Below are positions 1,992-32,989 of a stretch of DNA of 64,000 nt, in pieces. The DNA is from Tsuneonella aeria (GTDB taxonomy: Bacteria; Pseudomonadota; Alphaproteobacteria; Sphingomonadales; Sphingomonadaceae). The DNA is taken from the NCBI RefSeq assembly GCF_009827495.1, contig NZ_WTZA01000001.1, positions 434,001 to 498,000 on the forward strand. Reading direction: 5' to 3'. Positions within the stretch are counted from its first letter, which is position 1; the number at the start of each line of letters is the position of its first letter. A program made the position numbers and the translations under genes. Under the pieces are notes generated by a model. That model made no database searches. It was not told the DNA's origin and saw nothing but the letters and a program-made list of their open reading frames with translations.

Positions 1992-2868
1992 CGCGCGGTT
2001 GATAGCAGACCCGCACAACCTGGAAACACGGCTCGACGCGGCGATCGCGGCGCTGGAGGGCGCGGGGCTGCGGGTGGCCGAAGCGGCGATGCTCGATTTC
2101 TGCGGCGACGTGCTGGAGCTTTCCCTGCCCGAAGGCGATCCGCGCGTGCTGCGCCGGGTGATCGACGATCATTTCGCGCCGGTGGACGTGCTCGTCTCTC
2201 CACACGAAATCACCGCGCCGCGCGTGTTCGTCTCGGACATGGATTCGACGATGATCGGCCAGGAATGCATCGACGAGCTGGCGGATTTCGCGTCGCTGAA
2301 GGACCAAGTTTCCGCCATCACCGAACGGGCGATGCTGGGCGAACTTGATTTCGCCAGCGCGCTCGGCGAGCGGGTGGGGCTGCTGGGCGGGATGGCGGAA
2401 AGCGCGATCGAATCCTGCCTGGCGGAGCGCATCCGCCCTATGGACGGCGCGGGCACCCTCGTCGCCACGCTGAAGGCGCGGGGATGCCGCAGCGTGCTGG
2501 TGACGGGCGGCTTCCACCATTTCGCCGATCCCGTGGCGGGACAACTGGGGTTCGACCGCGTGGTCGCCAATCGACTCGGCGTCGCCGACGGTGCACTCAC
2601 CGGTGCGCTCGCCGGCGGGATCGTGGACAGCGCCGTCAAGCGCCAGGTCCTGCTGGACGAAGTCGCGCAGCTGGGCGGGGATGTCACGAGCCTCGCCACC
2701 GGGGACGGAGCGAACGACATTCCGATGATCGAAGCCGCGACCTGGGGGATCGCCTACCACGCCAAGCCAAAAGCCCGCGCTGCGGCTGACGGAACGGTCG
2801 ATCGGGGGGACCTCACCGCAATTCTCTCGCTTTTGGGAATTCCAAGAAGCGATTGGATTGCGAAATAG
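1984..2868 (+). CDS. serB: Phosphoserine phosphatase
   Basis: Last step of serine synthesis: hydrolyses O-phosphoserine to serine and phosphate. It is a HAD-family enzyme with the nucleophile motif DMDST at about residues 85-89, TGGFHHF for the phosphate-binding Ser/Thr region, and GDGANDIPM near the end. I chose GTG 1984 because GGAG lies 8 bases before it (1972-1975) and the resulting 294 aa match the family; frames further upstream would run through miaA. The approximately 80-residue N-terminal part resembles the ACT-like extension found in many SerB proteins. It is head-to-head with miaA and is followed by coq4 on the same strand. Confidence 0.93.
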
Positions 2869-24793: not shown

Positions 24794-26700
24794 TCGCTGT
24801 CCTCGTCCGCGGCGCCGGGCGGCGCCGGCGGAGAGTCTGAATCGTTCTGGGCTGCGCGCGCGGCCCTGCGACTGGCCATTAGCCCGAGTCGTTTCTCGAA
24901 CGCCAGCTTTCGTTTGAGCAGGCGCTGCTGCTCGGCGAAGGCGGCTTCAGGGTCGGTCTCAAAGCGCGCGGTGGCCGCCGCAAGTGCGGCATCCAGCGCG
25001 GGCCGTTCGACCAGCAACGACACGGCTTCGGCCAGGTCCTCGCGCGCGGCTATCGGATCGGCGCCTTCGTCGAGGAAGGCATAGCGACTGCTGTCCGGCG
25101 GCGGGGCGAAGCCCTGTGGCGCGCATATGGGCGCAAGTTCCCCCGGTTCAAGCATTTCTGCCGCCTCGATGAGAGCCTCCATCGCCGGGCCTGAGCGCCC
25201 GTCGCCGCGCGCATACCGGCCGAGCGGCTCGGAATGGGTGAGGATCTGGTCCGGGAAACGCAGCAATCCCGCGATCACCGCCGTGGCGAGCGCGTCGCGG
25301 CCACCGCCTTCGGCTGCCCGGCGCAGGCGAGCGGCAGCTTCGGCCGTGAGCTGCGGGGCCGGTGGCTTACCGAAGCCTCTCTTCCAGTCGCGTTGCGGAC
25401 GGTCGGGGCGGGGCGCCCTGGGGGGAAACGCGAACGCAGAGAACTTCTCCAGCAAGTCGCGGCGATAGAGGGAGCGGATGTCCGGGTGCTGGATCGTTTC
25501 GCAATGGGCGATCAGTCTCGCCTTCAGACCCGCCTTGTCCTCCGGCGTAGACAATGGGGATGCCGCCCTCTCGAAGCTCCACAGGGTGTCGAGAAGACTG
25601 TCTGCGTTGCCCAGCAACTCGGCCATTGCGCCGGCGCCCTGCTGCCGGATCAGGTCGTCGGGATCGAGGCCGGCGGGGAGGCTGGCGATGGACAGGGTTT
25701 TACCGGGGGCGAGCATGGGAAGCGCGCGCTCGATCGCCCGCATGGCGGCGCGGCGGCCCGCATTGTCGCCGTCGAAGCACAGGACAGGTACATCGATCAT
25801 GCGCCACAGCATCTCGAGCTGACGTTCCGTGAGGGCGGTGCCCATCGGCGCCACCGTCTCCTCGAACCCGGCCGCCGCCATGGCGACGGCATCCAACTGT
25901 CCCTCGACGACAACCATCCGCCCGCTGCGGCGGGAGGCGGGCCCGGCACGATGGAGGTTGAACAGGGTCCGCCCCTTGTCGAACAGTGGCGTATCCGGGG
26001 AATTGAGGTATTTCGCCGCATCTTTCTTGTCGGCGTCGAGAATGCGCGCAGCAAAGCCGATCACCCGGCCGCGCGGATCGTGGATCGGGATCGTCAATCG
26101 GTCGCGGAACCGGTCGTAGGGCTCCCGCGTGTTGCCGGCCTCGTCGTCGACCGCGATGAGGAGTCCCGCCTCGACCAGCATCGCCCGGTCGAATTGCTTG
26201 AGCGCCCCGGTGATCGCGTTGCGGGCATTTGGTGCATAGCCGAAGCCGAACCGTTCCAGGGTGTGCGCATCGAACTTTCTGCTTTCCAGATATGCGCGCG
26301 CCTTGCCACCGGCGGGCGTGGAAAGGTTCGCGCGGAACCAGTCCTGCGCCGCCTGCATCACTTCGTGCAGCCCTGCCTGGCGCTCGGCCCGGTGCATCGC
26401 CCGGGGGTCGGCTGCCGGCACCTCCATTCCCGCCTCTGCCGCGAGCTCCTTCACCGCATCCATGAAGGCGAGACCGCGCTGGTCGGTCATCCAGCGAATT
26501 ACGTCGCCGTGCACCCCGCAGCCGAAGCAGTGGTAGAACCCCTTGGCATCGTTCACGTAGAACGAAGGCGATTTTTCGTCATGGAACGGGCAGCATGCCT
26601 TCCATTCCCGCCCCGCGCGGATCAGCTTGGTCGTCCGCATGACGACGGCGCTTAGCGTCACCCGCGCGCGCAGTTCGTCCAGCCATTGCGGAGATAGCAT
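24790..26700 (-). CDS. dnaG: DNA primase
   Basis: Makes the RNA primers for DNA replication in partnership with DnaB. The CHC2 zinc finger has C37, H40, C58 and C61. The TOPRIM core follows with [17 protein letters not shown] and [12 protein letters not shown]. At 636 aa it is full length, with a divergent C-terminal helicase-interaction region typical of the order. ATG 26700 is the first start in the frame. It overlaps rpoD by 4 bases. Confidence 0.97.
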
Positions 26701-26753
26701 TTACGCTGCTGCCGCTCGGAGGCAGCCAGGAGTGCGCACCACCCCGCAAATGC

Positions 26754-27206
26754 TCAACTCAACGCCTCCTTAACCAGGCGGCTCGCCCCCTGCATGTCCA
26801 GCACCGAGGCATGCCGAGCTTTCAGTTCGGCCATTACGCGCCCCATATCCTTGATGGATGATGCGCCCAGGTCCGCCTTGATGCCGGCGATCGCCGCACG
26901 CGTCTCGTCGTCGGACATGCGGGCGGGGAGGAAGCTTTCGATCACTGCAAGCTCCTTGCGCTCCTGCTCGGCCAGCTCCTCGCGGTTGCCGTCCATGTAC
27001 ATCGTGATCGATTCGCGGCGCTGCTTGGCCATCTTCTGCAGGGTTTCGACGACCATCGCATCGTCGTCGGGTGCCTGCGCGGCGGTGCGGAGCTCTATGT
27101 CGCGGTCCTTCAGCCTGGCCAGGATCAGGCGCACGGCGGCAAGCCGTTCCTTGTCGCCGCCTTTCATCGCGTCGATCTGGGCCTGCTTGATGGTATCGCG
27201 GATCAT
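26754..27206 (-). CDS. yqeY: GatB/YqeY domain protein
   Basis: A 150-residue YqeY protein, related to the tRNA-binding tail domain of the amidotransferase GatB. The family is thought to be connected with tRNA or amidation, but its role is not settled. Recognisable segments are MKGGDKERLAAVRLILARLKD and VIESFLPARMSDDE, then DMGRVMAELK near the end. It lies 53 bases upstream of dnaG on the same strand, a common neighbour, and is divergent from carA. Confidence 0.88.
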   Translation of the reverse strand: MIRDTIKQAQIDAMKGGDKERLAAVRLILARLKDRDIELRTAAQAPDDDAMVVETLQKMAKQRRESITMYMDGNREELAEQERKELAVIESFLPARMSDDETRAAIAGIKADLGASSIKDMGRVMAELKARHASVLDMQGASRLVKEALS

Positions 27207-27336
27207 GTCGGTGGTGCCTTTTCGCGGGGAGTGGTGTGCATGGTGCGCTTAGCGCGGGTTGACGCCATGGGGAACCGGCCCTAGCGGCTGGGACTTAGCG
27301 ACATCGCCGGTAAACCCCTCTTTCGGAGCGCCCCTT

Positions 27337-28500
27337 ATGGCCGACCCCGCACCCAGCCACGCGCAACCTCCCGGCGCGACCGGCGTATTGGTGCTGGGCG
27401 ACGGCGCCGTGGTATGGGGCAAGGGCTTCGGCGCGGTGGGCGAGGCGGTGGGCGAAGTCTGCTTCAACACCGCGATGACCGGATATCAGGAGGTGATGAC
27501 CGATCCTTCCTACGCCGCGCAGATCGTCACTTTCACCTTTCCGCACATCGGCAACGTCGGCGCCAATTTCGAGGACGTGGAATCGCAGGTGGAAGGGGCC
27601 GTGGGCTGCGTCGTGCGCCAGTCGGTCACGCCCAGTTCCAGCTTCCGCGCCGAGCAGGAATTCGGGGACTGGCTCGCGGCGAAGGGGCGGGTGGGTTTGT
27701 CGGGCGTCGACACCCGCGCGCTCACCCGCAGGATACGCCTGAGCGGCGCGCCCAACGCGGTGATCGCCCATGCGCCCGATGGGGTGTTCGACATTCCCGC
27801 GCTGGTGAAGCGTGCCCGCGAATGGCCGGGGCTGGAGGGCATGGACCTCGCCGCGCGGGTCAGCCGCGAGAAACAGGAGGAGTGGGGCGGCGGTCACTGG
27901 GAGCTCGGCAAGGGATATGGCCGCGCCGACTTGCAGGGCCGACCCCACGTTGTCGCGATCGATTATGGCAGCAAGGACAACATCTTCCGCAACCTGGCGC
28001 GGGCCGGGGCGCGGGTGACGGTGGTGCCGGCGAAAACCTCGATCGCGGAGATCGATGCGCTCAAGCCGGATGGGGTATTCCTGTCCAACGGACCGGGCGA
28101 TCCCGCGGCAACCGGCGTGTACGCGGTGCCGTCAATAAGAATTCTTATCGAGCGCGGAACACCCGTCTTTGGCATCTGCCTGGGACACCAGCTTCTCGGC
28201 CTCGCCGCCGGGGCGACCACGAGCAAAATGCACCAGGGCCACCGCGGCGCGAACCACCCGGTCAAGCGATTGAGCGACGGGGTGGTCGAGATCACATCGA
28301 TGAACCACGGCTTCGCGATCGACAACACCGCGCTCCCCGAAAGCGTAGAGGAAACCCACGTCAGCCTGTTCGACGGTTCAAACTGCGGCATTTCGCTGAC
28401 GGGGAAGCGGGCGTTCGGCGTGCAGTATCACCCCGAGGCGAGCCCCGGCCCGCAGGACAGCTTCTACCTGTTCGAGAAGTTCGTGGGGATGTTGGGGTGA
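27337..28500 (+). CDS. carA: Carbamoyl-phosphate synthase small (glutaminase) subunit
   Basis: Hydrolyses glutamine and channels ammonia to CarB for carbamoyl phosphate, the start of pyrimidine and arginine synthesis. Class I amidotransferase triad: C281 in VFGICLGHQLLG, H365 and E367 in QYHPEASPGP. ATG 27337 has GGAG about ten bases upstream and yields 387 aa, the usual size; the 26-codon extension upstream is not conserved. The stop overlaps the start of a foreign-looking gene (GTGA) instead of being followed by carB. A short run of rare codons occurs at 28133-28148. Confidence 0.96.
   Translation: MADPAPSHAQPPGATGVLVLGDGAVVWGKGFGAVGEAVGEVCFNTAMTGYQEVMTDPSYAAQIVTFTFPHIGNVGANFEDVESQVEGAVGCVVRQSVTPSSSFRAEQEFGDWLAAKGRVGLSGVDTRALTRRIRLSGAPNAVIAHAPDGVFDIPALVKRAREWPGLEGMDLAARVSREKQEEWGGGHWELGKGYGRADLQGRPHVVAIDYGSKDNIFRNLARAGARVTVVPAKTSIAEIDALKPDGVFLSNGPGDPAATGVYAVPSIRILIERGTPVFGICLGHQLLGLAAGATTSKMHQGHRGANHPVKRLSDGVVEITSMNHGFAIDNTALPESVEETHVSLFDGSNCGISLTGKRAFGVQYHPEASPGPQDSFYLFEKFVGMLG
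28135..28148. repeat. Perfect 14-bp AT-rich palindrome inside carA
   Basis: ATAAGAATTCTTAT reads the same on both strands and encodes part of a conserved SIRILIERG segment. It uses TCA, ATA, AGA, ATT and CTT codons, which are rare in the surrounding carA sequence. Whether it has any function, or is a chance product of the rare codons, cannot be told from sequence. Confidence 0.5.
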
Positions 28501-29064
28501 GCGAAAGACTCTTCCATCAAGGGAGTGGCGATATGCTTTGCGGCCTTTACTGCGCGGCCCATCTAATCGCTTGTTTTAAGGTCAAGAATAAGAATCCCAG
28601 AAACCAGATGGATTTTTATGTGAAAGCTGCGGAACTTGCTCTGCAGCGTCTGGCTGAGAGCGCACAGCGGTTAAAACTACTCACTGCTGAACATCTTTTC
28701 GAGCCTAAGGCCGAGAATGGTGGTGGGTTTAACGACATGGCGCTGCAAAGAATTTTCAACGGTCTGGAAGTCGCAGATCGCGAAAACCTGAGAGCCATCG
28801 CATTCTCGTCGAAAAGGCTAAAACATCTGTGGGGGGCAGAGTATTTAAAGGGATCGCACGGGCACGACATTCTTGCCCAAGGTGCCCGTGCTGTCGTCAA
28901 TCAATCTCGAGAGAATCACTGGGTGACAGTTGAGGGGCGTCACCCTGAACGGGGGTACGTCAGCTATGACCCGAGCTTAGACGACCCCAAAAGTTTAGTG
29001 GAAACCATTCCTTGGAAGCGCGGCGGGATATTCGTCGCCGAACCCGAAGTGATCAGATATATAT

Positions 29065-29081
<17 letters not shown>
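28497..29081 (+). CDS. C39-like (papain-fold) cysteine peptidase between carA and carB
   Basis: A 194-residue cytosolic protein read from GTG 28497, which overlaps the carA stop; its end overlaps the carB start by 17 bases. The catalytic layout of C39-type peptidases is visible: oxyanion Gln Q8 and nucleophile C15 in [18 protein letters not shown], then H141 in ENHWVTVEG and D158 in [10 protein letters not shown]. There is no signal peptide and no ABC transporter nearby, so it is unlikely to be a bacteriocin-leader peptidase. The middle (30-120) is helical and charged and I recognise no family in it. By my count the gene is about 52% G+C, against about 65-70% in carA and carB, so it was probably acquired. 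The substrate is unknown. The family call rests on motifs only. Confidence 0.72.
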
Positions 29082-32403
<3,322 letters not shown>

Positions 32404-32512: not shown

Positions 32513-32989
32513 ATGGCTACGATGGAAAAGGTGCCGATGCTGGCCGAAGGTTACGAGCGGATCACCGCCGACCTGAAGGCGCTGCGGGCCGAACGACCGA
32601 AGATCGTCGATGCGATCGAGGAAGCGCGCGCGCATGGCGACTTGTCCGAAAACGCCGAATACCACGCCGCGAAGGAACGCCAGGGCCAGGTTGAAGCGCA
32701 GATCGCCGACCTGGAAGACCGCATCAGCCGCGCGCAGATCATCGATCCGGCGACCCTATCGGGCGACCGCATCGTGTTCGGCGCGACCGTCACCCTGCTG
32801 GATGAAGATGACAAGCCGGTGAAGTATCAGATCGTCGGTCAGACCGAAGCCGACGCGAAGGCCGGGCGGATCAGCTACAACTCCCCGCTGGGCCGCGCGC
32901 TGATCACCAAGACCGTCGGTGACGAGATCGAAGTGACGGTCCCTTCGGGCGACAAGTTCTACCTCGTCGAAAAGATCGAGTTCATCTGA
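32513..32989 (+). CDS. greA: Transcription elongation factor GreA
   Basis: Rescues backtracked RNA polymerase by stimulating cleavage of the nascent transcript. The N-terminal coiled coil carries the acidic tip [19 protein letters not shown], and the C-terminal FKBP-like domain ends [18 protein letters not shown]. At 158 aa it is full length. ATG 32513 is preceded by a purine-rich AAGAAGACAGG; ATG 32522 is an alternative. It follows carB, a usual order in alphaproteobacteria, after a 109-base gap. Confidence 0.96.

Follow-up and report, generated by a model that had tools for sequence, protein, structure and literature searches.

The carA-carB junction of the Sphingomonadaceae is probably a hypervariable slot within an essential operon, and a gene for a predicted papain-like cysteine peptidase that occupies it in Tsuneonella aeria is, on the same reading, one cassette of an accessory pool enriched in this slot. 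The gene lies in the 64,000-nucleotide stretch of DNA that we analyzed (contig NZ_WTZA01000001.1, positions 434,001 to 498,000 of the forward strand; hereafter the window), between the genes for the small and large subunits of carbamoyl phosphate synthase (CPS). According to the model proposed here, the slot would hold single genes, rarely two or three, and carA, the cassette and carB could be translated as a chain, since cassettes usually start in the carA stop codon and end at the start of carB.

Junctions were collected with carB and carA queries from the family in the GTDB sense (Erythrobacteraceae included) and duplicates were removed. This gave 131 parsed junctions, a number that does not include two loci (L002 and L055) with no carB match in their stretches; exclusion of three loci of another family (L030-L032) left 128. 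The sample is non-random, being composed of two sets of 30 loci that best match the window's carB or carA, and of 80 more stretches chosen by descending the second of these match lists, which comprises 192 genomes. Classification by the distance between the two genes revealed 97 junctions with a cassette (at least 140 bases), 14 with a short insert (21-139 bases) and 17 that are empty (20 bases or less). Comparison of this junction in related genomes had been proposed in a first-pass annotation of the window, and varied small genes or nothing were found there. Instead of one gene of native composition throughout the order, which that annotation had named as the finding that would speak against it, a strong match to the peptidase is present in only 6 of 397 family genomes, the window's own included.

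The 118 open reading frames (ORFs) found in 98 junctions (L002 included), some of which are spurious, form 55 clusters (phmmer, 1e-3), and 37 of these are singletons. Family scans were performed with 106 of the ORFs, the other 12 being omitted as very short or likely spurious. The recurrent groups are (i) RraB-like proteins, (ii) small proteins with an IDTYG motif, (iii) DUF6680 proteins, (iv) peptidases and, as judged by eye, (v) winged-helix-like and (vi) secreted and lipoprotein-like proteins; Pfam assigned nine of the scanned proteins to RraB, five to DUF6680 and one each to nine further families. Of eleven genomes of the window's own genus, eight carry a cassette, two have a short insert of 82 bases and one has an empty site; the eight cassettes fall into seven clusters, since part of the G008 cassette is shared with that of G004. 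Because congeners differ to this extent, the content of the slot turns over faster than species split.

These data bear on the suggestion, also made in the first-pass annotation, that the peptidase regulates CPS or acts as a processing enzyme, which would account for its location in carAB. The location, the tight overlap and the papain-like fold would suit such a role; however, 17 of the 128 junctions are empty, the rest carry many unrelated proteins, and the closest congeners lack the gene. As many genomes lack the gene and others can take its place, we consider this explanation highly improbable.

Most inserts are joined to their neighbors in a similar way. In 77 of the 97 cassette junctions carA ends in GTGA or ATGA, an arrangement seen in none of the 17 empty ones, which use TAA (16) or TAG (1). 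First ORFs were accepted only if they start between -13 and +30 relative to the carA stop, and since this limits the choice of ORFs, a control with shuffled inserts was run. Of the 77 ORFs with an overlapping start, 52 end between -12 and +40 of the carB start (0.49 expected from shuffled inserts) and 30 stop exactly one base into carB, in the form TAATG (0.06 expected), while seven end at +17, as the window ORF does. When all kinds of start are counted, the first ORF ends at +1 in 45 of 97 junctions. One distant peptidase relative (27%) among 97 other genomes likewise starts in the carA stop. The inserts have a lower G+C content than their flanks in 90 of 97 cases (mean 0.530 versus 0.625).

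The peptidase gene itself follows this pattern. Its start in the carA stop codon and its end 17 bases inside carB, described in the first-pass annotation, are placed exactly so, and the low G+C content estimated there (about 52% over positions 28501-29040) was measured as 51.9% (51.1% for the whole ORF), compared with 66.8% for carA and 65.4% for carB. Foreign codon usage was likewise borne out: third-position G+C is 0.54 in the peptidase ORF, 0.84 in carA and 0.87 in carB, and AGA accounts for 5 of its 194 codons, compared with 1 of 1112 in carB. The GTG at 28497 is favored as the true start because the QG near the N-terminus is conserved. The frame is also open backward through most of carA (27414-29081, plus strand, 555 codons), which can mislead gene callers.

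Control junctions were analyzed in 20 genomes (L143-L162, 10-15 kb each). The distance between carA and carB ranges in these from -1 to 1349 bases, compared with 78-116 bases for carB-greA, -14 to 47 for rpoD-dnaG and 107-150 for yqeY-carA (one case of 846). High turnover between conserved core genes, the mark of a hotspot, is seen in the 128 junctions with their 55 ORF clusters, next to tight control junctions.

Three of the protein families are enriched in the slot. Searching of 397 family genomes with a peptidase profile produced matches in 13 genomes at an E value of 0.001; in six (window included) the match is below 1e-17, and all six of these genes occupy the carA-carB junction. Matches of lower significance (3e-8 to 8.5e-4, including a second one in G140) are outside the slot among those examined. 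An additional slot peptidase is present in L238, a metagenome-assembled genome titled Erythrobacter sp. SCN 62-14. Among 34 other database relatives, nine have AQTH-like tails, which match a carB start read through in frame -1, a further seven have the C-terminal residues [NHD][AV] expected from ATGCCTAA or ATGTCTAA, and 18 are uninformative. The two other families were searched for with independent Pfam models. For RraB, 29 of 199 genomes contained a total of 33 matches; carA or carB coordinates were at hand for 16 genomes, and 16 of the 19 matches in these are located in the slot; DUF6680 gave 11 matches in 199 genomes, with 6 of the 9 of known coordinates in the slot.

Several observations were made next to these genes or on their relatives. 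In L216 a PIN-domain gene (2104-2709, minus strand) adjoins a slot peptidase; it lies on the opposite strand, flanked by carB and a truncated carB start. In Acidocella aquatica, which belongs to another order, a gene of the nucleotidyltransferase substrate-binding family (L298:1863-2300; Pfam, 1.1e-21) overlaps the carA stop. Two distant peptidase relatives (L224:1438-2974 and L217:811-2479) are found near a DUF3768 gene (Pfam, L224) or a phage-type integrase gene (Pfam, L217) and possibly represent a separate mobile module; for one distant relative associated with an integrase, two matches in plasmids were obtained. A phage or plasmid origin of the window peptidase was considered and rejected, as it had no match in viral contigs, plasmids or phages.

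The first-pass annotation had identified the protein as a C39-like peptidase with catalytic residues Q8, C15, H141 and D158. All four are at these positions, and in an alignment of 20 proteins C15 and H141 show no variation and D158 almost none. Structure comparison of the predicted model revealed a papain/C39-like fold, and not the different fold that would have spoken against the assignment; Foldseek alone returned nothing at an E value of 0.001 or better. No match was obtained to Pfam (E up to 10), NCBIfam, PADLOC or PHROGs models, and the distant relative L224 reaches Peptidase_C39_2 with an E value of 0.0032, which falls short of the cut-off. A single-sequence search of 5.8 billion proteins produced three relatives (50-76% identity) and a profile search 16. 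By fold and residues the protein is a papain-like cysteine peptidase that falls outside any family described in the libraries searched. The window gene would thus encode a cytosolic peptidase whose family, as far as seen, sits in the slot; it would be made whenever carAB is, and would cleave some cytosolic protein.

The cassette proteins seem to be constrained, since the ratio of nonsynonymous to synonymous substitution rates (dN/dS) within cassette families is 0.10-0.54 in the measurable pairs (17 of 33 listed, those with a defined dS; no peptidase pair was close enough). This is relevant to the alternative that most of the inserted DNA is neutral or decaying, open by chance and tolerated as long as carB stays translatable. 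The 14 short inserts of the family and the resemblance of some ORFs to repeats or spurious frames are in keeping with it, and selection for readthrough into carB could by itself hold a frame open. The dN/dS values, the retention of catalytic residues among peptidase relatives of less than 30% identity, and the recurrence of protein families argue against it, and we judge it quite unlikely.

Possible traces of the process that delivers cassettes were found within the inserts. Motifs resembling the carB start occur there 13 times, in nine loci (0.2 expected), and these remnants match the carB gene of the same genome for a length that varies from about 17 to about 115 bases (judged by eye), after which the similarity is lost; in L083 and L095 the peptidase ORF terminates within such a remnant. 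From their sequences, the remnants suggest one-sided recombination anchored in carB. Among 11 congeners, carB identity at fourfold-degenerate sites falls from 0.71 within codons 1-120 to a mean of 0.55 in the rest of the gene (Spearman -0.67, p 9e-5). Five congeners that carry different cassettes share the same final 30 bases of carA, and the empty congener differs there. We therefore envisage that cassettes may be exchanged by homologous recombination in the flanking carA and carB genes, and that extra ones may be added by one-sided recombination, which would leave a truncated carB start behind.

An alternative is a site-specific recombinase that recognizes the carB start and inserts cassettes in trans, in an integron-like manner. 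It would explain the precise placement and the repetition of carB starts between cassettes, and the distant peptidase relatives do adjoin a phage-type integrase. However, the remnants vary in matched length, so there is no fixed crossover point, and Pfam revealed no integrase family among the 106 cassette proteins (attC sites were not searched for). Such a recombinase is, in our opinion, improbable, and homologous recombination through the flanking genes is preferred.

Other features of the junction were also noted. The second ORFs in L021, L076, L095 and L124 begin with the N-terminus of CarB (MPKRT..) and continue as a lipoprotein-like signal (by eye); these are possibly new chimeric genes that arose by duplication of the carB start. 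In G017 (C1:2345221-2345666) carB appears as two overlapping matches, possibly due to a frameshift or an assembly error. The 18-mer GTGGGGATGTTGGGGTGA at the end of carA is shared by 30 of 97 cassette genomes and by none of the 17 empty or 14 short ones; since other protein-constrained stretches of carA match or exceed its count (modal counts of up to 51 of 96), it was rejected as a special landing sequence and is taken only as suggestive. No Rfam match to an RNA element was obtained at the junction.

All six tested neighbors (rpoD, dnaG, yqeY, carA, carB and greA) were confirmed by Pfam; the statement that no transporter is encoded nearby holds for these six. As described in the first-pass annotation, no Shine-Dalgarno-like stretch is visible by eye ahead of the carB ATG. 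In relatives with an empty site, carB starts in or adjoining the carA stop (TAATG), which indicates that the missing Shine-Dalgarno sequence was not caused by the insert. The tight wiring of the peptidase gene into carAB, also described there, was upheld. As to the further proposal that translation of carB may depend on this gene, coupled translation of carB is probably ancestral, because empty-site genomes share the geometry of the carB start.

Table 1. Coordinates of the peptidase cassette, its presumed functional sites and the adjacent genes in the window.
Feature	Position	Strand	Remarks
carA, CPS small subunit	27325..28500	+	Pfam CPSase_sm_chain 2.8e-46, GATase 7.2e-48; upstream TTG at 27259 is a possible alternative start
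Final 18 bases of carA (GTGGGGATGTTGGGGTGA), rich in G and including the start overlap GTGA	28483..28500	+	Possible cassette start signal (putative)
Papain/C39-like cysteine peptidase cassette, 194 amino acids	28497..29081	+	Gene under study
4-base overlap GTGA, cassette GTG start within carA TGA	28497..28500	+	Arrangement present in 77 of the 97 junctions with a cassette
Codon Q8, presumed oxyanion-hole Gln	28518..28520	+	QG conserved in relatives having the N-terminus; Q8 position unresolved in the model (predicted local distance difference test score below 50 for residues 1-11)
Codon C15, presumed nucleophile	28539..28541	+	Invariant, 20 of 20 aligned proteins
Codon H141	28917..28919	+	Invariant, 20 of 20 aligned proteins
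Codon D158	28968..28970	+	Nearly invariant, 20 aligned proteins
17 bases common to the carB start and the cassette C-terminus (..AQTH)	29065..29081	+	
carB, CPS large subunit	29065..32403	+	Pfam CPSase_L_D2 1.2e-102
greA	32513..32989	+	Pfam; junction with carB tight in relatives, 78-116 bases in 20 of 20 genomes

As to what maintains such a fast-turning pool, the likeliest selective reason within the explanation preferred here would be defence against phages or other invaders, a predicted activity that we take seriously while remaining slightly on the side of doubt. Proteins of the PIN-domain and nucleotidyltransferase substrate-binding families often occur in toxin-antitoxin pairs. The fast turnover, the low G+C content and the company of such genes suggest that the cassettes could be conflict genes. 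A more specific version, in which the carAB junction would be a polymorphic defence locus whose single-gene immune effectors, this peptidase family included, circulate among species via carA and carB homology and are expressed by translational coupling to the essential operon, with neither a promoter nor an integrase of their own, is put forward tentatively and seems to us rather unlikely. Among the 106 cassette proteins PHROGs recognized four families with one member each, and one of these matches, to Cor superinfection exclusion (E value of 0.00087), was set aside as too weak to build on.

The first-pass annotation had also considered a selfish or defence element protected from loss. What stands of this is an acquired accessory gene, selfish or defence-like, held inside an essential operon, a trait that recurs at the site and is not peculiar to this gene. 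A toxin or addiction role is a related possibility: loss of the peptidase gene would be harmful or would inactivate carB by polarity, which would keep the gene in place. No partner gene is present alongside, the other contents and the empty site of congeners show that loss is possible, and a shared fold proves no function; this explanation appears improbable as well, if anything a little more so than neutral DNA or a recombinase.

A number of findings weigh against the interpretation of the junction as a slot for selected, recombining cassettes. The gradient of synonymous identity in carB has no counterpart in carA, nor is there a trend in rpoD, and codon constraints at the start of a gene offer an alternative cause for it. 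The dnaG-yqeY junction (26700-26754 in the window) is also variable (13-2916 bases in 20 relatives), which weakens the claim that carAB is the sole variable junction in this region. Outside the family, 28 of 41 placed junctions (48 loci tested) have gaps below 140 bases and 13 have gaps of at least that size, several of them with repeat-like ORFs (by eye). The six-of-six location of the peptidase is partly circular: as the profile already contained the slot proteins of G047, G057, G140 and G213, only G458 is a new unbiased case. The dS values of cassette pairs are mostly near saturation. With regard to defence, there was no good model match, PADLOC giving five single weak matches among the 106 cassette proteins, and many cassettes look lipoprotein-like or secreted, which is a poorer fit to such a role.

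Compared with peptidases of the C39 family (PCAT1, ComA) and other papain-like peptidases, the window protein is a stand-alone, predicted cytosolic, single-domain protein of 194 residues with no Pfam match. Unlike the C39 processing peptidase of an ATP-binding cassette (ABC) exporter, it is neither fused to nor, among the six neighbors tested, adjoined by an ABC transporter, and it differs from papain-like toxin domains (CdiA-CT 8ssm, 9l5u) in having neither a delivery domain nor an immunity gene.

The carA-carB junction is occupied in other bacteria as well. In the genus of G531, which we take to be the P. aeruginosa group, 24 of 25 genomes keep the same junction ORF (85-100% identity to one member), presumably LysE-like, and one is short; in contrast to this one fixed gene, the sphingomonad slot holds a changing set. 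A hypervariable carA-carB region exists in Neisseria, and it was not found in our literature search. Searches of open-licence PMC papers (subscription papers being mostly outside this coverage) yielded no description of the sphingomonad slot. According to one report (PMC4619228), Xanthomonas citri and Pseudomonas aeruginosa have the arrangement carA-orf-carB, in which the two ORFs are unrelated and that of X. citri overlaps carA by one base; the sphingomonad junction, like these, also holds an ORF. A gene at this junction was thus already known, and the fast-changing one in Sphingomonadaceae is the new addition.

The significance of the slot lies in its position in an essential, translationally coupled operon, where turnover outpaces species within a genus and the geometry of starts and stops is nearly perfect. 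It makes the safe, promoterless expression of foreign genes testable and offers a compact set of unknown small proteins that can be searched, in which 37 of the 55 clusters were seen once and a new family of cysteine peptidases is included. According to Oliveira et al. 2017 (PMC5635113), gene exchange hotspots are believed to avoid operon interiors. Like the core-gene-flanked hotspots described there, the slot shows rapid turnover, no recognized mobile-element genes and possible signs of recombination in one flank; unlike them, it lies inside an operon and its cassettes overlap both neighbors. It is a hotspot between core genes of an unusual kind, located within an essential operon and with exact overlaps on both sides.
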